DNA of 21,658 bases from a virus. The stretch lies in IMG/VR virus record IMGVR_UViG_3300020213_000126, positions 1-21,658 of that record; one strand, 5' to 3'. Below, piece after piece: positions 582 to 11,071 of this stretch (within the stretch, counting starts at the first letter, position 1; every line of letters starts with the position of its first letter). A model generated the notes under the pieces. That model had not been told where the DNA came from. It was given only the letters and a program-made list of their open reading frames with translations, and made no database searches. The position numbers and the translations under genes are program-made.

Positions 582-2278
582 CGCTAACGCCTGTTGACAC
601 CTACGCCCTCGATGTCGTCGAGGGCCGCGTGCTGGCCGGTAAGTATCACCGGCTGTCGTGTCAGCGGCATCTGAGCGACCGGGCGCGTGAGGCGACGACG
701 GGGTTTCCGTTTCGGTTCGACTGGGCGCGCGTCGAGCGGTTCGTGCGGTTCGCTGGCCAGTTGAAGCACTACAAGGGCGAGTGGGCCGGCCAGCCGATTG
801 TGCTGCAGCCGCATCAGGTCTTCCGGCTCGGGTCGCTGTTTGCGTGGGTGAACACGGAGACTGGACTGCGGCGGTATCGCACGAGCTACAACGAGCTGCC
901 GCGAAAGTCTGGGAAGAGCCTTGAGGCCGCGGTCGTGGTGCTCTATGCCGCGTTCTTCGACGACGAGCCCGGCGCCGAGGGCTACACGATCGCGACGAAG
1001 CGCGACCAGGCCAAGATCGTCTTCAATGATGCCAAGAAGCTTGTGCAGTCGTCTGGGCTGAAGACGCGCATCGCCATTCGCGTGGCGAACTTGCACAACG
1101 TGGCCAGCGCCTCGAAGCTCGAGCCGCTCGGCGCCGACCATGACTCAACGGACGGGCTGAATCCGCACATCGTGTGCGTGGACGAGTTCCACGCACATAA
1201 AGATCGCGGTCTGATTGACGTCATGGAAACGGCGACTGGCGCGCGCCGACAGCCGATCTTCTTCCAGATCACGACGGCCGGCGATGACCCGGTCTCGCCA
1301 TGCGGCGACCAGCACGACTATGCCTGCAAGATTCTCGATGGCGTGATTGTCGATGAGACATTCTTCGGTTTCATCGCGCACGCGGATGAGGGCGACGACT
1401 GGCTCGACGAGCGCACCTGGCAGAAGGCGAATCCAAATTGGGACGTCTCGGTCAAGCCTGACGACATGCGCGCGTTGGCGACGAAGGCGCAGCACATGCC
1501 GAGCGCCGCGGCCACATTTAAACAGAAGCGGCTGAATGTGTGGGTCAACGCCACGTCGGTCTGCCTGTCGATTGAGGGGTGGAAGCGGGGCCAGTCGCGC
1601 GAGTGGCGCGGCGACCCGCGGTCACTCGATGTCCCGGAGCTGCACCACGAGCGGTGCTTTGTGGGGATTGACCTCGCGTCGAAGATTGACTTGTGCGCGG
1701 TCACGTTCGCGTTTCCGCCGTCACCTGGCCGGCCGACGTGGCGGTGGCTACAGCAGATCTGGAGCCCCGAGGACACGCTCGTGGAGCGGGCGCTGAAGGA
1801 CCGGGCGCCGTATCTGGTGTGGCGTGACCAGGGCTGGTTGCAGACAACGACAGGCGTTCGGCTGGACCATCAGAAGCTGATCGACGCCATCCTTGCGGCC
1901 AGGGAGATCTACGACATCGAGGCGATTGGCTACGACGAGTGGCACGCGGACAAGATCATCGACGACCTGATTACCGTGCATGGTTTTGATAAAGATCATG
2001 TGCTCGCGGTCAGCCAGACCTACAAGGGGATGTCGAGCGCGTGCCTGCACGTCCAAGCGGACATCCTTGCTGGGGAGGTGGATGCCGGTGGGTGCCCAGT
2101 CACGGCGTGGTGCATCTCGAACACGGCGGCGAACATCGACGGCAAGGAAAACCTGATGTTCGCGAAGGGCCGGTCTCGCGGGCGGATCGACCCGGTTATT
2201 TCGGCCACGATCGCCACGGCGCTGTGGCTACGGCAGCCAGATGAGACGGCAGTGGAGGTGGGGGCATGGGTGCTATGA
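578..2278 (+). CDS. terL: Phage terminase large subunit (ATPase/nuclease)
   Basis: 566 aa, the usual length for the Terminase_1 (HK97-like) family. It is the packaging motor that uses ATP to pump DNA into the prohead and cuts the concatemer. The N-terminus (YALDVVEGRVLAGKYHRL) is typical of this family. Walker A is PRKSGKS (residues 108-114), Walker B is IVCVDE (198-203), and the ITTAG coupling motif is at 231-235. The C-terminal RNase-H-like nuclease shows GIDLAS with D365, the GYDEWHADK acidic patch near 451-459, and D538 in DPVISATIA. The GTG start at 578 overlaps the terS stop. AGGGCGGG (564-571) is a usable ribosome site. The 3' end overlaps the next gene by 13 nt. Confidence 0.95.
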   Translation: MTLTPVDTYALDVVEGRVLAGKYHRLSCQRHLSDRAREATTGFPFRFDWARVERFVRFAGQLKHYKGEWAGQPIVLQPHQVFRLGSLFAWVNTETGLRRYRTSYNELPRKSGKSLEAAVVVLYAAFFDDEPGAEGYTIATKRDQAKIVFNDAKKLVQSSGLKTRIAIRVANLHNVASASKLEPLGADHDSTDGLNPHIVCVDEFHAHKDRGLIDVMETATGARRQPIFFQITTAGDDPVSPCGDQHDYACKILDGVIVDETFFGFIAHADEGDDWLDERTWQKANPNWDVSVKPDDMRALATKAQHMPSAAATFKQKRLNVWVNATSVCLSIEGWKRGQSREWRGDPRSLDVPELHHERCFVGIDLASKIDLCAVTFAFPPSPGRPTWRWLQQIWSPEDTLVERALKDRAPYLVWRDQGWLQTTTGVRLDHQKLIDAILAAREIYDIEAIGYDEWHADKIIDDLITVHGFDKDHVLAVSQTYKGMSSACLHVQADILAGEVDAGGCPVTAWCISNTAANIDGKENLMFAKGRSRGRIDPVISATIATALWLRQPDETAVEVGAWVL

Positions 2279-2478
2279 CGGTGCGCGAGCAACTGCGGGA
2301 CGCCTATCTTTCGTCGGGTCGGACAATGGACGATTTGTCGCATGCGTCGGGCGTGAGTAAGCGGACGATTCTGCACATGTTTTGTGGGCGGAACGTGACG
2401 ACGGCCAACCTCTTCGCGCTGGCGTGCGTGCTGCGTATTGAGTCGATTCGCGTCCCTGTGAGTGAGCAACTCTCGTGA
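2266..2478 (+). CDS. Small XRE-type helix-turn-helix protein
   Basis: 70 aa. The segment from about residue 20 to 52 (TMDDLSHASGVSKRTILHMF, then an N-x-T-T-x-N-L-F-A-L-A pattern) is a typical XRE/Cro-like helix-turn-helix, so it probably binds DNA. ATG 2266 is supported by GGAGG at 2254-2258. ATG 2275 would give an ATGA overlap with terL but sits too far from that site. The gene falls between terL and portal, an uncommon place for a regulator. It is followed by a perfect short dyad and a TTGACA element before the methyltransferase-glycosyltransferase gene. I infer that it may control that gene. Nothing in the sequence says whether it activates or represses. Confidence 0.7.
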   Translation: MGAMTVREQLRDAYLSSGRTMDDLSHASGVSKRTILHMFCGRNVTTANLFALACVLRIESIRVPVSEQLS

Positions 2479-2531: not shown

Positions 2532-3866
2532 GTGCCACGCCTAGATCGCGGTGCTCTCGATCACTTCTACCAGGAGATTCCTGGCTGGTGTGATTACGCG
2601 GACTATTACGCGAAGGTCATCGCCGGCCTTCCTGATGGTGCGCGCATAGTCGAGGTCGGCGCCTGGCAAGGCCAGAGCACAGCGGCGCTGGGTGTAGAGA
2701 TCGCGAATTCGGGGAAGGCCATCCGTTTGGATGTGGTCGATCACTTTCGCGGGTCCGACGCGAGCGAAGGCCCAACGGGCGCGCTCGGGCTGCCTGACCT
2801 TCGCCAGCGCTTCGACAGACATACGGAGCCGATTAGACATCTGATCCGCAACGTCCACCAGATGGCCTCAGTCGACGCTGCGGCTCTTTACGACGACGCT
2901 AGTCTCGATTTCGTCTGGATCGACGCCTCGCACACGGCGCCAGACGTGCTGGCCGATCTGAATGCCTGGTGGCCGAAGGTGCGGCGCGGCGGTATCCTGG
3001 CCGGCCACGATGCGGATATGGTGGGCGTGAGCGCTGCCGTCGTGCCCTGGGGTCATATGGCCGGCGTGACACCTCGGCCAGTCTCCCTGCGGTCATGGGA
3101 AGTCCGCAAGCCCTCGGGACTCGGCAGTCTGCATGTGCCAGTCGGACGACGTAAGTGTCTCGTCGTGGTCGCCTCGAATGAACGAACGATCTACCGCGGC
3201 ACGGTCGAAAGCCTTGTGAAACTCGGATGGGGCGCGCGCGTCACGACGGCCGGCACGATGCACGGATTCGACGACGTGCAGTTTACGTGGGTCTCGCGCC
3301 ACACGCGCGTGGACGACCTCCGTAATGAAGCCGTCCGTATGGCGATCGGCACGGGCGCCACACATTTACTGTTTCTCGATGCCGACATGACCTGGCCTTC
3401 GGATCTGCTGGCCAGGATACTCGCGCATCACGACAAGGGCGTCGTTTCTGGGCTCTACTTTCTGAAACAGTGGCCGCACTGGCCGGTCTCGCTTGCGTCT
3501 CCGTCTGTGAATCTCTCAACGGGTGGGGTGGATTACATTTACGACGACGCGGCCGTGATCGACGTGCACTTGCGTCCGGCATCCCTCGTCGGTATGGGCT
3601 GCACATTGATCCCGATGTCGGTGATCGACGCGATGCCGTCTCCCTGGTTCGAGTATCGTCAGAATAGTCACGGCTTCTGGACGGTCACTGAAGACGTGGC
3701 GTTCTGCCAGAAGGTCTCCGCGCTCGGCTGTCCAATCTGGCTGGACCCGTCGATAAAGTGCGGCCACATTGGCGCAGAGCCGGTCACGGAGCCGTGGTTC
3801 CTGCGGTCTCAAGTGGAGCAGCGTGCCCTGGCGGACATGAAGCAGCGCGAGCAGGTGTCCGCATGA
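2532..3866 (+). CDS. Methyltransferase-glycosyltransferase fusion protein
   Basis: 444 aa in two enzymes' worth of sequence. Residues about 20-195 look like a class I SAM methyltransferase (Methyltransf_24-like): SAM motif I is IVEVGAWQGQST (39-50), an acidic strand DVVDHF follows (67-72), then FVWIDASH (127-134) and RRGGILAGHD (151-160). Residues about 208-425 look like a GT-A glycosyltransferase: CLVVVASNER opens the domain (209-218), the metal/nucleotide-sugar DxD is LFLDADM (280-286), TED (386-388) is a possible catalytic acid, and CGHIG (410-414) may supply the metal-binding His. The GTG start is the first possible codon after an in-frame stop at 2523, and no clear ribosome site precedes it. 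The gene overlaps portal by ATGA. Likely role: sugar transfer plus O-methylation on virion protein or another glycan. The acceptor is unknown. Confidence 0.8.
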   Translation: MPRLDRGALDHFYQEIPGWCDYADYYAKVIAGLPDGARIVEVGAWQGQSTAALGVEIANSGKAIRLDVVDHFRGSDASEGPTGALGLPDLRQRFDRHTEPIRHLIRNVHQMASVDAAALYDDASLDFVWIDASHTAPDVLADLNAWWPKVRRGGILAGHDADMVGVSAAVVPWGHMAGVTPRPVSLRSWEVRKPSGLGSLHVPVGRRKCLVVVASNERTIYRGTVESLVKLGWGARVTTAGTMHGFDDVQFTWVSRHTRVDDLRNEAVRMAIGTGATHLLFLDADMTWPSDLLARILAHHDKGVVSGLYFLKQWPHWPVSLASPSVNLSTGGVDYIYDDAAVIDVHLRPASLVGMGCTLIPMSVIDAMPSPWFEYRQNSHGFWTVTEDVAFCQKVSALGCPIWLDPSIKCGHIGAEPVTEPWFLRSQVEQRALADMKQREQVSA

Positions 3867-5131
3867 GCCTATGGACGCGGATGTTCGGCGCCACGCCTCA
3901 GCCTGAGCAGCGGGCCACCTTTAAGGAAGTCGAGTTCTGGCGCGATCTCGGCTGGACGAGTGAGGTGTCATCCGGCCTCTCGGTGACGCCAGACTCTGCC
4001 GTCATGGTGCCCGAGGTCTACTCGTGCATCAACGTGCTGGCGCAGGACGTCGGCCGGTGCCCGCTCAAGCTGCGTGCCCGCACCGATCAGGGATGGATCG
4101 ACGCCGAGACGCACCAACTCTGGGAAGTGCTACACGATCTGCCTAACCCCGAGATGACGGCTGCGGAGTTCCGCGCCGACATGATGCGGCAGCTGCTGAA
4201 GCACGAGCGCGCGTATGCCGAGATCGTGCGTCGGCCGAACGGCACGATTCAGGCGATGTGGCCGCTCGAGAGCAGCCGGATGACCGTGAGTCGGGACGGC
4301 ATGAATCGCAAGGTCTACACCTATAAAGTCGGCGACGGGCAGCCGATCACGTGGATTTTCAACGCTGACCGACCACCATTGCTTGATCTACGGCACCCGT
4401 CGCCGATCCACCAGTGCCGCGATGCTATCGGGCTGGCGATGGCGATCGACATGTATGGCGGCAAGTTCTTCGCCAACGGCGCACGACTCTCCGGGCTCTT
4501 GATGGCGAAGGGTGGGCTCAAGCCTGCTCAAAAGCAGTCGCTTCGTGAGGCGTTCGCCGAGATGTATGGCGGCGTCAAGAACGCGCACCGGGTAGGCGTG
4601 CTCGAGGGCGATATGGAATTCAAGCAACTGACGTCGCCGAACGACGAAGCTCAATATCACGAGTCGCGCAAGATGGTGCGGTCGCTGATTGCCGGCGCGT
4701 TCCGCGTCCCGTCTCACAAAATCAACGACCTCGAGCGCGCGACGTTCTCGAACATCGAAGCGCAGGATCGTGATTACGTGAACAGCGGTCTGGACCCGTA
4801 TCTCGTGCTGTGGGAGCAGGCGATTAGACGCGACGTGCTGACGACGCGCCAGTATCCCCGTTACCAGGCCACGTTCGACCGTGAGGCGCTGATCCAGGCT
4901 GATTCCGCCTCGCGGGCCGCTGGCTTCTCACAGGGCCGGCAGAACGGCTGGTATAGCCCAAACGACATCCGCCAGAAACTCGGCGAGAATCCGATCCCAG
5001 CGACCGAGGGCGGCAACCGCTACCACATGAACAGCACGCTTGTGCCACTCGACACTGAGCCTGCCGAACATGTGGCCTCCGTCGTGAACCCATCAGGGGT
5101 TTCCGATCTGCCGGTGCAGCAGGTGATGTGA
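3863..5131 (+). CDS. HK97-type portal protein
   Basis: 422 aa, typical for the HK97 portal family (Phage_portal, PF04860). The portal forms the dodecameric ring at one capsid vertex through which DNA enters and to which the tail attaches. Family hallmarks are the N-terminal VPEVYSCINVLAQDVGRCPL segment (49-68), the LLDLRHPSPIHQCRDAIGLA region (about 173-192), and the C-terminal FRVPSHKINDLERATFSNIEA segment (280-300), the most conserved part of the family. ATG 3863 overlaps the upstream stop (ATGA). A longer in-frame reading from 3758 would lie inside the upstream gene and is rejected. The gene also overlaps the protease gene. Confidence 0.95.
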   Translation: MSLWTRMFGATPQPEQRATFKEVEFWRDLGWTSEVSSGLSVTPDSAVMVPEVYSCINVLAQDVGRCPLKLRARTDQGWIDAETHQLWEVLHDLPNPEMTAAEFRADMMRQLLKHERAYAEIVRRPNGTIQAMWPLESSRMTVSRDGMNRKVYTYKVGDGQPITWIFNADRPPLLDLRHPSPIHQCRDAIGLAMAIDMYGGKFFANGARLSGLLMAKGGLKPAQKQSLREAFAEMYGGVKNAHRVGVLEGDMEFKQLTSPNDEAQYHESRKMVRSLIAGAFRVPSHKINDLERATFSNIEAQDRDYVNSGLDPYLVLWEQAIRRDVLTTRQYPRYQATFDREALIQADSASRAAGFSQGRQNGWYSPNDIRQKLGENPIPATEGGNRYHMNSTLVPLDTEPAEHVASVVNPSGVSDLPVQQVM

Positions 5132-5703
5132 TGAGCCAAGAACGCCGAGGACTGGATCGGATCGTGGAGTTGCGGGCAGACGCCGACGCGCCGCCGCAGT
5201 TGGTTGGCTATGCGGCCATCTTCGGCCAGCGCACGACCATTGCCGGCATGTTCCACGAGCAGATCGACCCGGGCGCGTTCCGTGACGCCGTGGGCGAAGA
5301 CGACGTGCGCGCGTTGTTCAACCACGACCCGAACTTTCTGCTTGGGCGCAGCGCCGCAGGCACGTTGCGGCTCAGTGAGGATGCCACGGGCCTCCGCTAT
5401 GAGATCGATATGCCTGACACGCAGGTCGGGCGCGATGTGCTGACCAGCGTCAAACGTGGCGACATTCGAGGCAGTTCGTTCGCGTTCGATGTCGTGGGCG
5501 ACGTCTGGACGAATCCGACGCGATCGGGTGAGTTGCCGGTGCGAACAATCACGAAAGCGCGTCTCTTCGACGTGTCGCCTGTGACGTTTCCGGCCTATGA
5601 GCAGACGAGTGTGTCTGCACGGAGCCAGGCTGAAGCGTCGACGCGGCCTGTCGACACGATGAGTGTAGAGCGGTCGCGATGGACACTGGCGCAGAAAGGC
5701 TAG
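5131..5703 (+). CDS. Prohead (capsid maturation) serine protease
   Basis: 190 aa, the usual size for the HK97 gp4-like family (peptidase U35). It cleaves the scaffold-like delta domain of the capsid protein during head maturation. Numbering from the GTG at 5128, the nucleophile/base pair is visible as FNHDPNFLLGR (His66) and RGSSFAFDV (Ser116 or Ser117). The strand order GYAAIFG, GTLRLSED, GLRYEIDMPDT and DVSPVTFPAYE is characteristic. I prefer ATG 5131, which overlaps the portal stop and has AGGTG 5-10 nt upstream. The GTG at 5128 is in frame and would add one residue. It lies immediately upstream of a Com-like gene and then the capsid gene. Confidence 0.93.
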   Translation: MSQERRGLDRIVELRADADAPPQLVGYAAIFGQRTTIAGMFHEQIDPGAFRDAVGEDDVRALFNHDPNFLLGRSAAGTLRLSEDATGLRYEIDMPDTQVGRDVLTSVKRGDIRGSSFAFDVVGDVWTNPTRSGELPVRTITKARLFDVSPVTFPAYEQTSVSARSQAEASTRPVDTMSVERSRWTLAQKG

Positions 5704-5858
5704 TGCCCGCGCGGGCGTTGTTGCGAGAGGTGCGCTGCAGAGCGTGTCGGCGGTTGCTCTGCAAGTCTACGGACGCTCCCGTGAAGGCGGGATCGACCGT
5801 GGAGATCAAGTGCGGTGGTTGCGACACGATGAACTATTTGGTAAGCCGTCCGACGTAA
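5703..5858 (+). CDS. com-like: Com-like zinc-ribbon protein
   Basis: A 51-aa reading frame. It has two Cys pairs, RCRAC (C12, C15) and IKCGGC (C37, C40). The pattern RCxxCRRLL, then about 20 residues, then VEIKCGGCDTMN matches the Mu Com family (consensus near RCxxCxKLL ... LEIKCPRCxxxN). Mu Com is a zinc-binding RNA-binding protein that opens the mom mRNA for translation. The GTG at 5703 shares a base with the protease stop, and AAAGG lies at 5695-5699. A second in-frame GTG is at 5730, just before the first Cys pair. No mom-like gene lies in this window. The next gene is the major capsid protein, so the RNA target here is unknown. Confidence 0.75.
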   Translation: MPARALLREVRCRACRRLLCKSTDAPVKAGSTVEIKCGGCDTMNYLVSRPT

Positions 5859-5933
5859 TTCCTACGTGTGACGGAATCCGGCATCCAGAGGCCCAGCGCG
5901 AAAGGCCCGCCAGACGCGCACCGGAGAATCTGT
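5859..5933 (+). promoter_or_regulatory. Leader of the capsid gene with strong ribosome site
   Basis: A 75-nt gap between the Com-like gene and the capsid gene. GGAGA (5923-5927) is 6 nt before the ATG at 5934. ATTCC (5857-5861 region) and GGAAT can pair around a 10-nt loop, and CAGA/TCTG flank the ribosome site as a weak 4-bp pairing. These are short and could be chance. If the Com-like protein binds RNA locally, this leader is the nearest candidate. A longer in-frame capsid start at GTG 5868 has no ribosome site and is rejected. Confidence 0.3.
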
Positions 5934-7127
5934 ATGTCTATTTCCCTGCGAGAGAAGCGCGCCAAGCTCGTTGCCGACTGGCGCGTCGTGCTGGACAAGG
6001 CCGACACCGAACAGCGCGGACTGTCGGTCGACGAAAAGGCGATGGTCGAGAAGATCGAGGCCGACATCGACGGCATTAAGTCCACCATCGACACTCAGGA
6101 CCGTCTGGCGGCGGCGGAAAAGCTGGCCACGGAAGAGCGTGGCGTGGTGCCCGAGTCGCAGCGTGCGACGGTCAAGCACACGGAGAGCGCCATCCTCGCG
6201 CCTGCGGACATTTACCGCGACGCCTTCTGGCACATGTTCCGCACGGGCGAGCGTCGCGCCGAGCTGCGATCGCACGCGGTCGGCACCGACACGCGCGGCG
6301 GCAACCTCGTGCCTGACGAGTTCCGCCGCGAACTGGTGATGGCCCTCGAAGAGGCCAACGTCATGCGTCAGTTGGGCACGGTCATCACGACCAACAGCGG
6401 CGCCCTCAGCATCCCCACGGTCAGCGCGCACGGATCGGCCTCGTGGAAGGGCGAAGAAGTCGCGTTCGCCGAGAGCGACGAACAGTTCGGCTCGGTCACG
6501 TTGAATGAATACAAGGCCACCACGCTCGTGAAGGTCTCCGAGGAACTGCTGAACGACTCGGCGTTTCCGCTGGAAAGCTACATGGCGACCGAGTTCGCGC
6601 GCCGTCTGGCCGACCTCGAAGAGACCGCCTTCGTCGTGGGCACCGGTTCAGGCCAGCCCACGGGCGTGGTCGGCGGGTCCACCGCTGGCAAAACCGCGAC
6701 CGCGACCAACGCCATCACGGCTGACGAGTTGATGGATCTGCAGTATGCGCTGGCGCGTCCGTATCGGAAGCGTGCGTCATGGCTGATGAATGACTCCGCG
6801 GTCAAGGCGATTCGCAAGCTGAAGACCGGCGTCTCGAGCGACAACACCTACCTCTGGTCGCCAGGTCTGTCGGCCAGTGAGCCGGATCGTCTGCTTGGCT
6901 CGCCCGTCTTCACGTCGCCGGACATGGCTGCGATTGCCACGTCAGCGAAAGCCGTGCTTTACGGCGATTTCAGCTACTACTACATCGCGGATCGCCAGTC
7001 GATCACGATGCAGCGTCTCGTGGAGCTCTACGCCGGCAACGGCCAGGTGGGGTTCCGCATCTTCAAGCGCACGGATGGCAAGCTCACGCTGGCCACGTCC
7101 GTGCAGCACCTCGTGATGGCCGCGTAA
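5934..7127 (+). CDS. HK97-type major capsid protein
   Basis: 397 aa. It forms the icosahedral head shell. Residues 1 to about 105 are charged and helical (coiled-coil-like), matching the delta/scaffold domain that the prohead protease removes. The mature part begins around residues 105-125, near GTDTRGGNLVPDEF (117-130), a very typical start of the HK97 fold. Further signatures are the NSGALSIPTV strand, the EVAFAESDEQFGSVTLNEYK segment, SEELLNDSAFPLESYM, and the C-terminal VGFRIFKRTDGKL. There are no cysteines. It follows the protease with only the Com-like gene between. ATG 5934 was chosen for its GGAGA site. Confidence 0.96.
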   Translation: MSISLREKRAKLVADWRVVLDKADTEQRGLSVDEKAMVEKIEADIDGIKSTIDTQDRLAAAEKLATEERGVVPESQRATVKHTESAILAPADIYRDAFWHMFRTGERRAELRSHAVGTDTRGGNLVPDEFRRELVMALEEANVMRQLGTVITTNSGALSIPTVSAHGSASWKGEEVAFAESDEQFGSVTLNEYKATTLVKVSEELLNDSAFPLESYMATEFARRLADLEETAFVVGTGSGQPTGVVGGSTAGKTATATNAITADELMDLQYALARPYRKRASWLMNDSAVKAIRKLKTGVSSDNTYLWSPGLSASEPDRLLGSPVFTSPDMAAIATSAKAVLYGDFSYYYIADRQSITMQRLVELYAGNGQVGFRIFKRTDGKLTLATSVQHLVMAA

Positions 7128-7140
7128 GGGAGTTAGGTAT

Positions 7141-7572
7141 ATGCCACGTAACTTCCTGAACGGCGCACGGCTCATCAAGGTGGCCGACCATACGGTGGCC
7201 GGCACCTCCACGCTCACGTCGAGCATTATCGACACCGCTGGGTACCAGGGCGTCGTGTTCTTCACGTCTCTGTCAGTGGCAGACGCGACGAACTCAATCA
7301 AAATCCAGCAGCACACCGCCAACCAGACGACCGGCATGTCGGATCTGGCTGGGTCTAGCGTGGCTAGCGGCACGACCGACGAGGATCTCGTGATCGAGAT
7401 TCACAAGCCGGGTGAGCGGTACCTGCAGGTAGTCGTGACCCGTGGGGCATCGACCACCTGCGAATCGGTCTGGGCGGCGCTCTATGGCGGCACCACGAGC
7501 TCCGCGTCGACGGGCGTGGCTGGCACGGCGGCGGCTGAGCTGCACGTGTCGCCTGCTGAGGGCACGGCCTAA
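7141..7572 (+). CDS. Putative head decoration/auxiliary structural protein
   Basis: 143 aa, family not recognised with certainty. The sequence is rich in Thr, Ser, Val and Gly with alternating hydrophobic residues, so mostly beta-strand is expected. Segments such as YQGVVFFTSLSVADATNSIKIQQ and the run GERYLQVVVTRG are common in proteins placed just after capsid genes in siphoviruses. It lies 13 nt after the capsid gene, with GGGAG at 7128-7133 as the ribosome site. A capsid decoration or other capsid-surface role is an inference from position and composition only. Confidence 0.6.
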   Translation: MPRNFLNGARLIKVADHTVAGTSTLTSSIIDTAGYQGVVFFTSLSVADATNSIKIQQHTANQTTGMSDLAGSSVASGTTDEDLVIEIHKPGERYLQVVVTRGASTTCESVWAALYGGTTSSASTGVAGTAAAELHVSPAEGTA

Positions 7573-7574
7573 TC

Positions 7575-7790
7575 ATGCAGATCCGGTTGCTCACCTCACT
7601 AGCAGGCCCCGACGGCGCGTGGGCAGCTGGCGATCTGTTTACGTGTGACGAGGCGACGGCTGGCCGCATGATTGCGGCCGGCTACGCCGTTCCTGCGTTC
7701 ATCGGGGCGGCGTCTGTCGTCGTCGAAACGGCAGACGCGCCGCCATTCGCAGAGCGTGCGATTGTCTCCCGTAAAGGGAAGCGCACGTGA
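7575..7790 (+). CDS. Small head-associated protein of unknown function
   Basis: 71 aa. The first 40 residues (RLLTSLAGPDGAW ... GDLFTCDEATAGRMIAAGYAVP) follow a pattern often seen in short proteins encoded just before the head-tail connector: a strand, an acidic segment, then a helix ending in a Gly-Tyr/Ile-Ala turn. The function of such proteins is not established. The ATG at 7575 follows the previous stop by 2 nt. GAGGG at 7559-7563 is a little far for a ribosome site, so reinitiation after the upstream stop is likely. The end overlaps the connector gene by GTGA. Confidence 0.7.
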   Translation: MQIRLLTSLAGPDGAWAAGDLFTCDEATAGRMIAAGYAVPAFIGAASVVVETADAPPFAERAIVSRKGKRT

Positions 7791-8392
7791 TTGACGCGCG
7801 GTCTCGTCCGATCCATTTCGGACTGACACGCACGACCGATGCGCCGATTGACGCGATCGACGTGATGGAGGCGAAGGACTGGCTTCGTGTCACGCATGAC
7901 TCTGAAGACGTGACCATCGCGGCGCTCATCGCGGCGGCACGCGTCAAGGTTGAGGACGACACCGGCATCGGGATTGGGTTGTCGACATGGACGTGGACTC
8001 TCGATGCCACGCCGCGCAGTCTACGTGTGCCTGTCGGGCCGCTGCAAAGCGTGACGAGCATCACAAGCCATAACGAATCCGACAGTAACGACGTGGTGGC
8101 CGCGTCTGTGTATCGGGTGGATGTCGAAAGCCTCCCAGGCAGAATTGTGCTCAAGAACGGTCAGTCATGGCCCTCTAGTTTACGGCCAGAGGGCGGGCTC
8201 ACCGTGATCTTCGTTGCAGGGTTCAGCGCGCCCAATAGCGTGCCGACCCCGTTACGGTTGGCGATGCGTCTATTGGTGGAGCACTGGTTCTCGCATCGTG
8301 GCGTGGTCGCGACGCCGGGCCAAACAGGGACGGAGCTACCACGTGCGTATGGCGATCTTGTGGAGCCCTACAGGCTCAGGGTGGTGATGTGA
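7787..8392 (+). CDS. Head-tail connector protein (HK97 gp6-like)
   Basis: 201 aa. This family forms the ring below the portal that joins the head to the tail. The helical stretch VMEAKDWLRVTHDSEDVTIAALIAAARVKVEDDTG (26-61) is the hallmark of the Phage_connect_1/gp6-like family. A central beta region with SLRVPVGPLQSVTSI follows, and PTPLRLAMRLLVEHWFSHR with the C-terminal LVEPYRL is also typical. The GTG start overlaps the previous stop (GTGA), with AAGGGAAG upstream at 7774-7781. It overlaps the adaptor gene in the same way. Confidence 0.88.
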   Translation: MIDARSRPIHFGLTRTTDAPIDAIDVMEAKDWLRVTHDSEDVTIAALIAAARVKVEDDTGIGIGLSTWTWTLDATPRSLRVPVGPLQSVTSITSHNESDSNDVVAASVYRVDVESLPGRIVLKNGQSWPSSLRPEGGLTVIFVAGFSAPNSVPTPLRLAMRLLVEHWFSHRGVVATPGQTGTELPRAYGDLVEPYRLRVVM

Positions 8393-8724
8393 CCCCGCGT
8401 CAGTCTGGCACGAGGCGCCACCTAGTCGAGCTGCAATCGATTACCGGCCGCGTGCCGGCTGGGGACGGCTACACCGACACGTGGGCCACCTACGCGACGG
8501 CGTGGGCATCCGTGCTGCCTGCGGACGCCGCGGCGGTGGCACGCGTCAGCGCGAACACGATTGAGTCGCCCATCACGCATGTGGTCGAGACGGACTATCG
8601 CGCGGCCATCAAGCCTCAGCATCGTGTCTGGCTGAAGAGCGCGCGTGCGCTCTACATCACAGGGATTGCGAATCTTGAAGAGCGGGACATCACGCACGTG
8701 CTCCTATGCGAGGAACGCCAGTGA
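8389..8724 (+). CDS. Head-tail adaptor (Phage_H_T_join family)
   Basis: 111 aa, typical for the SPP1 gp16 / HK97 gp7 type of head-closure protein. The pattern SGTRRHLVELQSITGRVPAGDGYTDTW (residues 6-32) then WASVLPADAA, and later IESPITHVVETDYRAAIKPQHRV with YITGIANLEER, matches this small beta-barrel family: an opening 'RR..L' strand, 'D..G...W' turn, then the 'H...iRyr..i....rv' strand. It closes the DNA exit channel after packaging. GTG start in a GTGA overlap, with AGGGTGG at 8378-8384 as ribosome site. Confidence 0.88.
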   Translation: MTPRQSGTRRHLVELQSITGRVPAGDGYTDTWATYATAWASVLPADAAAVARVSANTIESPITHVVETDYRAAIKPQHRVWLKSARALYITGIANLEERDITHVLLCEERQ

Positions 8725-9146
8725 GCGCGTCATTCCGCGTTGACATTTCCGGGTTGCGTGCGGATCTGCTCGCGCTGGGGGCTGTGGCGGACGCTGAGAC
8801 GGCGCGCATCGTGGAGTCTCATGCGCGCCTCTTTGCGGCGGACCTCCCGACGCGGTATCCGGCTGGCGCGACGGGGAATCTCAGGGGCGGCGTGAGGCTC
8901 GACAAGTTAGGGCCGCGCCGATTCAGAGTCCAAAACAGAGCGCCCCATGCCCACTTGTATGAGTTCGGCACCGTGCGCCGCTTCACCTCTGGCAGCGGAG
9001 CGAAACGGGGCACCATGCCCGCGCGTCCGGTGTTCGTGCCGCAGGCGATTTACTGGCGGACGCAGATGTTCCAGCGCACGGCGTCTTGGTTGCGGTCGCT
9101 GCGCGTGAACGGCTTCCGCGGCACGCCCGAGGTGCGCGAGACATGA
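8721..9146 (+). CDS. HK97 gp10-like head-tail/tail completion protein
   Basis: 141 aa. The N-terminal pattern ISGLRADLLALGAVADAETARIVESHARLFAADLPTRYPAGATGNLRGGV and the later PHAHLYEFGTVRRF, followed by PARPVFVPQA, are classic HK97 gp10-like features (the 'tGnLr', 'hA...E.GT' and 'mPaRPf..pa' blocks). The family is needed to join or finish the tail. I place the start at GTG 8721, which overlaps the adaptor stop and has AGGAA 6-7 nt upstream. The in-frame ATG at 8706 would add five residues but lies inside that ribosome site. Confidence 0.88.
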   Translation: MSASFRVDISGLRADLLALGAVADAETARIVESHARLFAADLPTRYPAGATGNLRGGVRLDKLGPRRFRVQNRAPHAHLYEFGTVRRFTSGSGAKRGTMPARPVFVPQAIYWRTQMFQRTASWLRSLRVNGFRGTPEVRET

Positions 9147-9568
9147 GCGCGATTGACGTGGCCGTCATGACCGCGCTGAAGGGGGATGCCACGCTCACCA
9201 CGTTGGCGCCAGGCGGCATCTATCGCGACGTCGCGCCGGAGGCGGTGGTCAGTTCCGCGCTCGCAGACGCTACGCAGGTGTTTGGTGTCGTCACGCTACA
9301 GAGCGCGCCACAGGTTTACACGTTCACAGAACGCGCGTTCGAGGAATGCCGCTATCTCGTGAAGTGCGTGTCGCCTTCGACGAGTCCCGTGAAAGCCCAG
9401 CAAGCGATCGACCGCGCCGAAGTCGTGCTCTCGACGCTTGCGGTGAGTGGGTTCGCGGTGACGTGCTCACGTCGAGAAGAGCGCATCAGCTACGTCGAAT
9501 CTGACGGGCCGGTGTTCTGGCAGCACCGAGGCGTGTCGTGGTTGGTGATGGCGAGTCCCACATCATGA
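9143..9568 (+). CDS. Putative tail terminator/tail completion protein
   Basis: 141 aa. Residues 1-30 (IDVAVMTALKGDATLTTLAPGGIYRDVAP) resemble the opening of DUF3168-type tail-terminator proteins ('v..aL..d..l..l..gg.I......'). The middle FEECRYLVKCVSPS and the amphipathic AQQAIDRAEVVLSTL helix, then a C-terminal strand pair ending in WQHRGVSWLVMA, also fit that fold. Position after the gp10-like gene and before the tail tube supports a tail terminator that caps the tube at the head end. ATGA overlap at both ends. ATG 9143 has GAGGTG 9-14 nt upstream. Confidence 0.7.
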   Translation: MSAIDVAVMTALKGDATLTTLAPGGIYRDVAPEAVVSSALADATQVFGVVTLQSAPQVYTFTERAFEECRYLVKCVSPSTSPVKAQQAIDRAEVVLSTLAVSGFAVTCSRREERISYVESDGPVFWQHRGVSWLVMASPTS

Positions 9569-10659
9569 CGCCGCTCAAAGTGCTGGTGATTGGGGCTGGG
9601 GCGTCCACGTCGACCGCGGACGTTGAAGCTGGGCTGATCTTCGGTCTCAAGGCGGAGGGGTGCACGGTCATCCACTACGCGCTCGAGGGCCGACTCCACG
9701 GCGCGAAGAAGTGGCTGCATAACGCCTGGAGGCTCAAGAGAAAGACGCAGCCGGACATCCTCAAGCCAAACGATGCGGATGTGCGGTATCAGGCCGGCAT
9801 GGGCGCTCTGGAGCGTGCGTTGCGGCATCAGGTGGACGCGGTGATCGCGGTCAGTGGGATGTTCCTGCATCCGGATGTGCTGATTCTGATGCGTCGCGCT
9901 GGGCTGATTGTGACGGTGCTATTCACTGAGTCGCCCTACGACATCGAAGAAGAGTTGAAGGTCGCGCAGATTGTGCATGCGTGCTGGACGAACGAGCGCA
10001 CGTGTGTCGAGCAGTTTCGGTCGGTCTGCCCAAATGCCGGCTATCTGCCTCACGCCTGGCATCCGACGCGGCATACGCTGTCGCACGCGGGCGATAGCGA
10101 CGTGCGGGCGCACGATGTGGTGTTCGTCGGGTCGGCGTTTCGAGAGCGCGTGGAGATGTTCAGGTCGATTGATTGGACGGGCATCGACCTTGGCCTCTAT
10201 GGAAACTGGGACTCGCTCGCGCCACGCGATCGCCTGCGGAAGTATCTCTATGGCGGCGTCCAAAACAACGCGACGGCTGCGGCAATGTATCGGCGCGCGA
10301 AGGTCGGCCTGAACCTGTATCGGTCGTCGAAGGGGTTCGGCTGGGCGGCGCCACAGATTGCGCCAGCGTCGGCGCAGTCCCTCTCGCCGCGCGCCTACGA
10401 GTTGGCGGCGTGTGGCGTGTTTCATTTATCGGAATCCCGTGCGGAAGTGGCGGAGGTGTTCGGCTCGGCCGTCCCGACGTTCACGAATCCCACGGAGGCA
10501 GCGGCCTTGATCCGGCGCTGGCTGGCAGATGATGCCGGCCGCGCGGCTGTGGCCGCTTCACTCCCGGCCATGGTGGCCGAGTCGTCCTGGGTGCATCGAG
10601 CACGACAGGTCATGACGGATGTGAGCGCGCTCGTGCAAAGCACGCGGCGCGCAGCGTAA
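9565..10659 (+). CDS. GT-B type glycosyltransferase (CgeB/Glyco_trans_1_2-like)
   Basis: 364 aa. Opening KVLVIGAGASTS is a Rossmann strand-turn. Residues 115-150 (IVTVLFTESPYDIEEELKVAQIVHACWTNERTC) match the CgeB-type pattern in which a strand is followed by 'tdd.....', and HDVVFVGSAFRERVEMF (183-199) starts the C-terminal half. The strongest sign is LSPRAYELAACGVFHLSE (273-290), the nucleotide-sugar binding motif of GT-B glycosyltransferases, followed by a helical tail typical of Glyco_trans_1_2 (PF13524). It sits between tail terminator and tail tube genes with ATGA overlap upstream. Likely acceptor: a virion protein or a host surface sugar; not shown by the sequence. Confidence 0.85.
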   Translation: MTPLKVLVIGAGASTSTADVEAGLIFGLKAEGCTVIHYALEGRLHGAKKWLHNAWRLKRKTQPDILKPNDADVRYQAGMGALERALRHQVDAVIAVSGMFLHPDVLILMRRAGLIVTVLFTESPYDIEEELKVAQIVHACWTNERTCVEQFRSVCPNAGYLPHAWHPTRHTLSHAGDSDVRAHDVVFVGSAFRERVEMFRSIDWTGIDLGLYGNWDSLAPRDRLRKYLYGGVQNNATAAAMYRRAKVGLNLYRSSKGFGWAAPQIAPASAQSLSPRAYELAACGVFHLSESRAEVAEVFGSAVPTFTNPTEAAALIRRWLADDAGRAAVAASLPAMVAESSWVHRARQVMTDVSALVQSTRRAA

Positions 10660-10672
10660 ACGGAGTCTCACG

Positions 10673-11071
10673 ATGCCGAAGTATCACGGACAAAAAGGGC
10701 GCGTCTACATGTCGGTGTCGGGTGCCGGCGTGGCTGTGCAGCAGGTGGCGCTGACCAGTTGGTCGCTCGACATGCCGACCGACCGCGTGGAGGTGACGTC
10801 GTTCGAGGACGGGAATAAGGTCTACGTCCAGGGCAAGAAGGACATCTCCGGGTCGCTGTCTGGCTTCTTCGACGACACCAGCGATCTGCTGTTCCAGTCG
10901 GCGGACTCGGCGACTCCCGTGAGGATGTATCTGTATCCATCGGCCGACGCGCCCACGGTCTACCACTACGGCACGGCGTGGGTGGACGCCTCGATCGAAG
11001 TCGGGGTCGATGCGGCGGTGTCGATCACGGGCAGCTTCCAGGCTGCGACGACGTGGGCGCGGAAGCCCTAA
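10673..11071 (+). CDS. Major tail (tube) protein candidate
   Basis: 132 aa, no cysteine. The pattern KGRVYMSVSGAGVAVQQVALTSWSLDMPTDRVEVTSFEDGNKVYVQGKKDISGSLSGFFDD is typical of siphovirus tail tube proteins: an N-terminal strand, a 'W.l....d..evTsf.d......'-type turn, then 'G....~sgsl.G..dd.s..l'. The C-terminus (YGTAWVDASIEVGVDAAVSITGSFQAAT) has the usual final beta-hairpin. It precedes the tail assembly chaperones and the tape measure, the standard place. GGAG (10662-10665) lies 7 nt before the ATG. It directly follows the GT-B gene. Confidence 0.85.
   Translation: MPKYHGQKGRVYMSVSGAGVAVQQVALTSWSLDMPTDRVEVTSFEDGNKVYVQGKKDISGSLSGFFDDTSDLLFQSADSATPVRMYLYPSADAPTVYHYGTAWVDASIEVGVDAAVSITGSFQAATTWARKP

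Follow-up and report, generated by a model that had tools for sequence, protein, structure and literature searches.

The virion glycosylation of the mycobacteriophages Che8, Corndog, and Myrna is said, in papers citing the work, to have been described by Freeman et al. 2023. According to PMC11600133, which cites that study, cluster O phages have an O-methyltransferase followed by three tandem glycosyltransferases (GTs) that modify the capsid and the tail tube. In PMC12363180, Che8 gp110 and Corndog gp38 are named as virion-glycosylating genes, and PMC12619734 locates the glycans at the C termini of the capsid and tail tube subunits. Here, we analyzed the IMG/VR virus record IMGVR_UViG_3300020213_000126 (21,658 bases; the window), in which a methyltransferase fused to a GT-A domain (MT-GTA) and a GT of the GT-B fold (GT-B) are encoded among the head and tail genes. 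Judging from gene layout and enzyme classes, these are probably two independent protein-modifying units with which the virus glycosylates its own virion. Virion glycosylation is the best-supported reading because phages reported to glycosylate their virions have the same enzyme combination.

Corndogvirus Catdawg (KF017002) was used as a positive control. Its gene order is terminase, HNH, portal, O-methyltransferase, GT, GT, GT, protease, and capsid, the methyltransferase being of the TylF/Methyltransf_24 type and the last GT belonging to GT25. Che8 gp108 is a fusion of GT2 and Methyltransf_24/TylF domains, in the same order as in two of the loci related to the window, L010 and L012 (related loci are designated here by L and a number).

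The window has a GC content of 63.6% and is a fragment, so early genes fall outside its view. Profile matches and gene order identify it as a siphovirus-like late operon. The genes for the terminase subunits TerS and TerL and a small helix-turn-helix (HTH) protein are followed by those for MT-GTA, the portal, the S78 protease, a Com-like zinc ribbon, and the HK97 capsid protein, then by those for a Ser/Thr-rich protein, a connector, a head completion protein, gp10-like and gp17-like (terminator) proteins, GT-B, and the tail tube, and finally by chaperone-like genes, the tape measure gene, and tail genes. The first-pass annotation had placed two unrelated GTs within the head and tail genes, and this was confirmed: the GT-A fusion (2532-3866) and GT-B (9565-10659) have unrelated folds (GT-A and GT-B, respectively), and their flanking genes are real structural genes.

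GT-B travels with the tail tube gene

The following genes of the tail region are concerned (lengths in amino acids [aa]; folds from AlphaFold2 [AF2] models).

9143..9568, + strand: gp17-like tail completion/terminator protein (PF11367, 7.7e-4, below the cut-off; synteny in L005 and L006)
9565..10659, + strand: GT-B glycosyltransferase, 364 aa (PF13524, 3e-18; AF2 fold)
10673..11071, + strand: tail tube protein, 132 aa (match to phrog_1407, major tail protein, 1.3e-9)

Of the 117 distinct tail-tube sequences from all loci, 115 are immediately preceded by GT-B, the exceptions to direct adjacency being L297, where GT-B lies ~940 nucleotides (nt) upstream, and L232, which has none. The unbiased part of this collection consists of two scans made with the tail tube only (best 80 of 166 and best 80 of 320), the other loci having been fetched partly with GT-B itself; in both scans, every locus returned carries GT-B upstream of the tail tube gene. 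The head genes and the gene preceding GT-B vary while the pair stays together. In L005 and L006, for instance, the terminator, GT-B, and tail tube are conserved at 59% to 80% identity, and the heads are unrelated or very distant. The distances of GT-B and of the tail tube were correlated (81 pairs; Mantel r of 0.41; 0 of 2000 permutations as high), suggesting that the two proteins diverge together.

When tail tubes were aligned, residue 79 was Ser in 86/86 sequences from GT-B loci, whereas the two sequences from loci without GT-B had Ala or Gly there. Tyr88 and Trp128 show the same pattern, and Ser79 is therefore treated as a lead. In L251 (same record as L028), L254, and L255, the coding region of GT-B overlaps the tail tube gene by ~90 nt in another frame.

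The open reading frame (ORF) list opens GT-B at position 9538; the ATG at 9565 agrees with the relatives and overlaps the stop codon of the terminator gene (ATGA, 9565-9568). The tail tube gene begins 13 nt after the GT-B stop at 10659. GT-B matched PF13524 (Glyco_trans_1_2) with 66.6 bits against a curated cut-off of 25 (E=3e-18). Its AF2 model (predicted local distance difference test [pLDDT] score, 95.1; predicted template modeling [pTM] score, 0.90) matched GT4-type folds over the whole chain, with BshA (Z 27.1; root mean square deviation of 3.0 over 323 residues), GlgM, PimA, and PglA among them, and R195, R276, E279, R292, and E294 were invariant across 35 relatives. GT-B matched no PHROG family and gave no match in a PDB sequence search, and no relatives of it were found by tblastn in 50,697 phage records.

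GT4-type enzymes such as PimA and PglA often use lipid carriers or glycans, and modification of the host surface is stated in the literature, including PMC12619734, to be common among phage GTs. Clusters of several GTs also occur in some relatives of the window. The enzymes could accordingly modify host surface polysaccharides or lipid-linked sugars, in superinfection exclusion or serotype conversion, with their position in the late operon being incidental. We consider this unlikely, as a host-modifying gene need not stay beside one structural gene across 35% to 60% identical proteins and different head modules. Moreover, a membrane segment could not be convincingly recognized in either enzyme (Kyte-Doolittle maxima of 1.5 and 1.7, the latter inside a folded Rossmann domain), and no flippase-type genes were seen among the ORFs of the window, a fragment. 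Membrane-bound GTs near an integrase, as in gtrABC serotype-conversion clusters, were not seen there either.

MT-GTA travels with the head genes

The head region contains the following genes.

2266..2478, + strand: small HTH_3 regulator, upstream of MT-GTA (PF01381, 2.8e-5; no match in L003)
2532..3866, + strand: MT-GTA fusion, 444 aa (PF13578, 4e-17; phrog_1574, 2e-17; AF2 folds)
3863..5131, + strand: portal protein (PF04860, 1.6e-89; its start overlaps the MT-GTA stop, ATGA)
5131..5703, + strand: prohead serine protease, S78 (PF04586, 5.8e-48)
5703..5858, + strand: Com-like zinc ribbon, start possibly at 5679 (PF10122, 7.5e-7; 29.0 bits, cut-off 22.9)
5934..7127, + strand: HK97-type major capsid protein, candidate head acceptor (PF05065, 1e-73)
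7141..7572, + strand: small Ser/Thr-rich protein, 143 aa, directly 3' of the capsid gene (phrog_5707)

The layout MT-GTA, portal, protease, Com, and capsid is shared by L002 (97%), L003 (60%), and L085 (57%), the last two of which differ from the window in TerL and in the tail genes. A scan with the portal as the only query returned 77 loci. MT-GTA was directly upstream of the portal gene in 6/6 portal relatives of at least 60% identity and also in L185, L219, and L231/L232, where the identities are 34% to 41% for the portal and 44% to 49% for MT-GTA; the remaining loci of the scan had no MT-GTA match. The pairing was thus found at 9 independent portal loci. The ATGA overlap between MT-GTA and the portal gene is kept in the window, L003, L085, and L176, and the Com-like gene lies between the protease and capsid genes in all these head modules, including L003, L085, L176, and L178. 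The Ser/Thr-rich protein is kept with the head module at 64% to 71% and is a candidate decoration protein and alternative head acceptor.

The reading frame of MT-GTA runs from a GTG at 2532 to the TGA at 3866; the relatives begin 7 to 8 codons later, and the exact start is therefore uncertain. Translational coupling of both GTs to the structural genes had been proposed in the first-pass annotation. It is consistent with the ATGA overlaps of MT-GTA with the portal gene (3863-3866) and of the terminator gene with GT-B, the evidence being overlap only, but does not extend to the upstream side of MT-GTA, which is uncoupled from the small HTH gene by a gap of 53 nt.

The methyltransferase half of MT-GTA comprises residues ~1 to 200, and Methyltransf_24 (PF13578) covers residues 40 to 160 (63.4 bits, above the curated cut-off of 26.3). 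The GT-A half (residues ~205 to 420) matched PF00535 (Glycosyl transferase family 2) with 16.6 bits, below the curated cut-off of 23.3, and was assigned by phrog_1574 and phrog_12406 (glycosyltransferase) together with fold comparison; its conserved motifs are LDADM (DxD-type DAD at 283-285) and TEDVxFC. The sole PDB sequence match to MT-GTA was MeT1 (E=6e-4, methyltransferase half). In the AF2 model (pLDDT, 82; pTM, 0.66), the closest folds for residues 1 to 199 were 8c9v, MeT1, MycF, SpnH, and NovP (Z 17.6 to 18.9), with MeT1 at Z 18.6 to 18.8. For residues 204 to 424 they included the GT-A folds of the human LH3 glycosyltransferase domain (Z 16.9) and STIV A197 (Z 17.2), to which Foldseek added COLGALT1 (GT25 fold). 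By Pfam and predicted fold, the methyltransferase half resembles sugar-type O-methyltransferases and not DNA methyltransferases, which fits the earlier suggestion that the methyltransferase could cap the glycan.

A comparison of MT-GTA (2532-3866) with L002:1019-2350 revealed 13 non-synonymous and 37 synonymous codons, and the four neighboring genes together have 4 and 80, respectively (Fisher p=7e-4). The faster change of the MT-GTA protein reflects relaxed or diversifying pressure in one genome pair and is not used as proof.

The Com-like regulator had raised the alternative of nucleic acid modification, in which the enzymes would glycosylate or hypermodify the phage DNA and Com would control the modification gene, as in phage Mu. 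The zinc ribbon itself stands, its PF10122 match being above the cut-off. In addition, phrog_2675 carries the name DNA methyltransferase, and the GT-B fold resembles that of T4 DNA alpha-glucosyltransferase (Z 22.4). However, Com is a regular member of the head module, where the next gene is that of the capsid protein, and neither a mom-like gene nor one for hydroxymethylation was detected within the 21.7-kb window, a fragment. The methyltransferase half is similar to enzymes that methylate small molecules and sugars, and the genes with which the GTs are linked are those of the portal and tail tube rather than replication genes. DNA modification is therefore a very unlikely function for these enzymes.

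Two separately inherited modules

No PF13524 GT-B was found in L003 and L085, although both carry MT-GTA, and no PF13578 or PF00535 protein was found in the 40-kb record of L005, though GT-B is present. Because each GT occurs without the other in relatives, the two belong to separately inherited modules, and the window joins an MT-GTA head module to a GT-B tail module. The linkage within the modules is far beyond chance, given the 115/117 distinct tail-tube sequences and the nine portal loci in which it was seen. The proposal in the first-pass annotation of one glycosylation system split across the morphogenesis genes is consequently not supported.

A related possibility is that MT-GTA and GT-B act in sequence on one acceptor in a joint glycan pathway. 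Both enzymes are present in the window, and about nine sister records pair a split GT-A and methyltransferase in the head region with GT-B in the tail region. The relatives having one enzyme without the other, and the inheritance of each enzyme with its own structural module, make such a pathway rather improbable.

A variable tailoring slot precedes GT-B

The gene directly before GT-B was surveyed in 94 non-redundant GT-B loci, 92 of which were counted, as two are at contig ends. It encodes a methyltransferase in 38/92, a GT2-methyltransferase fusion in 15/92, a radical SAM/SPASM protein in 8/92, and a cytidylyltransferase, a GT2, and a DegT aminotransferase in 1 each; a tail terminator occupies the position in 11/92 (window included), and 17/92 are unassigned. 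Altogether, a tailoring-type gene or a GT2 fills the slot in 64/92 loci. A constant GT and acceptor combined with changing tailoring enzymes are as expected for a diversifying glycan. The near-obligate pair, in what may be a large, uncultivated phage lineage, could represent a dedicated tail-tube GT that has joined the core genes of tail assembly, preceded by a tailoring slot whose enzymes are exchanged and diversify the glycan between phages, and with Ser79 as a candidate site; we put this forward tentatively, as a possibility somewhat short of even odds.

GT and methyltransferase genes are also combined elsewhere. In L011, L029, L044, L047, L052, L070, L072, L074, and L137, separate GT-A and Methyltransf_24 genes adjoin between the capsid and portal genes; the GT-A proteins of these nine records are 25% to 35% identical to the window domain, and all nine records also carry GT-B. 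L090 and L092 have separate GT-A and methyltransferase genes in the order of the window, followed by another methyltransferase gene, and L090 adds a GT9-like gene. In L010, L012, and L043, a GT2-methyltransferase protein with the opposite domain order is encoded directly before GT-B. Such repeated fusion and adjacency suggest that the activities cooperate, a sugar being transferred and then methylated.

The radical SAM/SPASM genes (PF04055, PF13186) before GT-B in eight sister loci (e.g., L018:988-2055 and L156:3827-4903) may modify a virion protein by radical chemistry, at a sugar or at the peptide. The slot is filled in single relatives by a cytidylyltransferase (L040:2982-3482) and a DegT/DnrJ sugar aminotransferase (L170:2-667), a hint that sugar donors may be made by the phage. 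The idea that these phages generally encode a sugar pathway of their own was rejected, since the DegT aminotransferase was found in 0 of 50 records and is present only in L170. In L057:1000-6500, several GT2, GT-B, and methyltransferase genes are clustered between the capsid and tail genes, and the records of L028 and L034 likewise hold several GT2 matches; the L057-type clusters are larger glycan-assembly cassettes within the same lineage.

Other features of the window

Near the right end of the window, the gene at 20347-20868 matches phrog_3108 (5.6e-35). Searches of the window for tRNAs and Rfam families gave no match. A host in Propionibacteriaceae was considered and not assigned, as the one close relative from the genome scan is a 5.6-kb contig in a metagenome-assembled genome and is possibly mis-binned.

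Proposed mechanism and its significance

The proposal builds on the domain identities, folds, gene overlaps, fixed linkage, independent inheritance, and variable slot observed here, from which we infer what the enzymes do, which donors and acceptors they use, in what order the steps occur, and what the virus gains. GT-B, coproduced with the tail tube protein, would transfer a sugar to the tail tube subunit or its glycan, with a host nucleotide sugar as the donor. MT-GTA would be translated just before the portal protein, and its GT-A half would add a sugar to a head-module protein, for which the capsid protein and the small Ser/Thr-rich protein encoded after it are the most likely candidates. 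The methyltransferase half would then O-methylate the sugar added by the GT-A half. The benefit could be shielding or stability of the particle.

Several observations weigh against virion glycosylation by these enzymes. Gene linkage by itself names no acceptor, and tail tubes without GT-B exist in L232 (~30% identity) and in Pelagibacter phage HTVC111P (31%). The predicted GT-B fold cannot discriminate among protein, DNA, and small-molecule acceptors, since T4 alpha-glucosyltransferase also scores Z 22.4, and the collagen-type match of the GT-A half reflects a common fold and is no proof of a protein acceptor. BLAST comparison of the window GTs with the Che8 enzymes, including gp110, gave no significant similarity; direct homology to the Che8 GTs was accordingly rejected, and the link to the mycobacteriophage system is only by architecture and methyltransferase family. 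Neither window enzyme had a GT25 Pfam match, such as Che8 gp110 and the Catdawg gene 36 product have, COLGALT1 being matched structurally only.

If this reading is correct, virion glycosylation would be more than a curiosity of a few mycobacteriophages: across a broad lineage of phages, tail assembly would regularly include it. The built-in slot for changing the sugar would then open its possible purposes (protection from binding proteins, stability of the tail, or adsorption) to comparison between phages that differ in nothing but the slot, and the lineage would supply protein glycosyltransferases of phage origin whose acceptors are defined.

Comparison with known systems

The window GT-B has a whole-chain fold in common with the GT4-type enzymes BshA, PimA, and PglA, at only 8% to 17% identity to the solved chains, and, unlike GT4-type enzymes generally, its kind almost invariably adjoins a tail tube gene. 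The methyltransferase half is similar to the sugar O-methyltransferases MeT1, MycF, and SpnH in its fold and in its PF13578 match above the cut-off but differs from them in being fused to a GT-A domain.

The comparison with mycobacteriophages made in the first-pass annotation is borne out by the O-methyltransferase and three GTs between the portal and protease genes of Catdawg and by the Che8 gp108 fusion. As in these phages, phage GTs are accompanied in the window by a TylF/Methyltransf_24 O-methyltransferase. By layout and enzyme classes, the window system is of the same kind and probably works like that of the mycobacteriophages, of which it is not a proven member. The Catdawg GTs are encoded between the portal and the capsid protease genes. 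Che8 and Catdawg each have one GT cluster, whereas the window has a fused MT-GTA and, in addition, a GT-B that is tied to the tail tube gene. Virion glycosylation is already known, and two independent GT modules, one of them apparently a near-obligatory partner of the tail tube with a changing tailoring slot, represent an unusual form of it.

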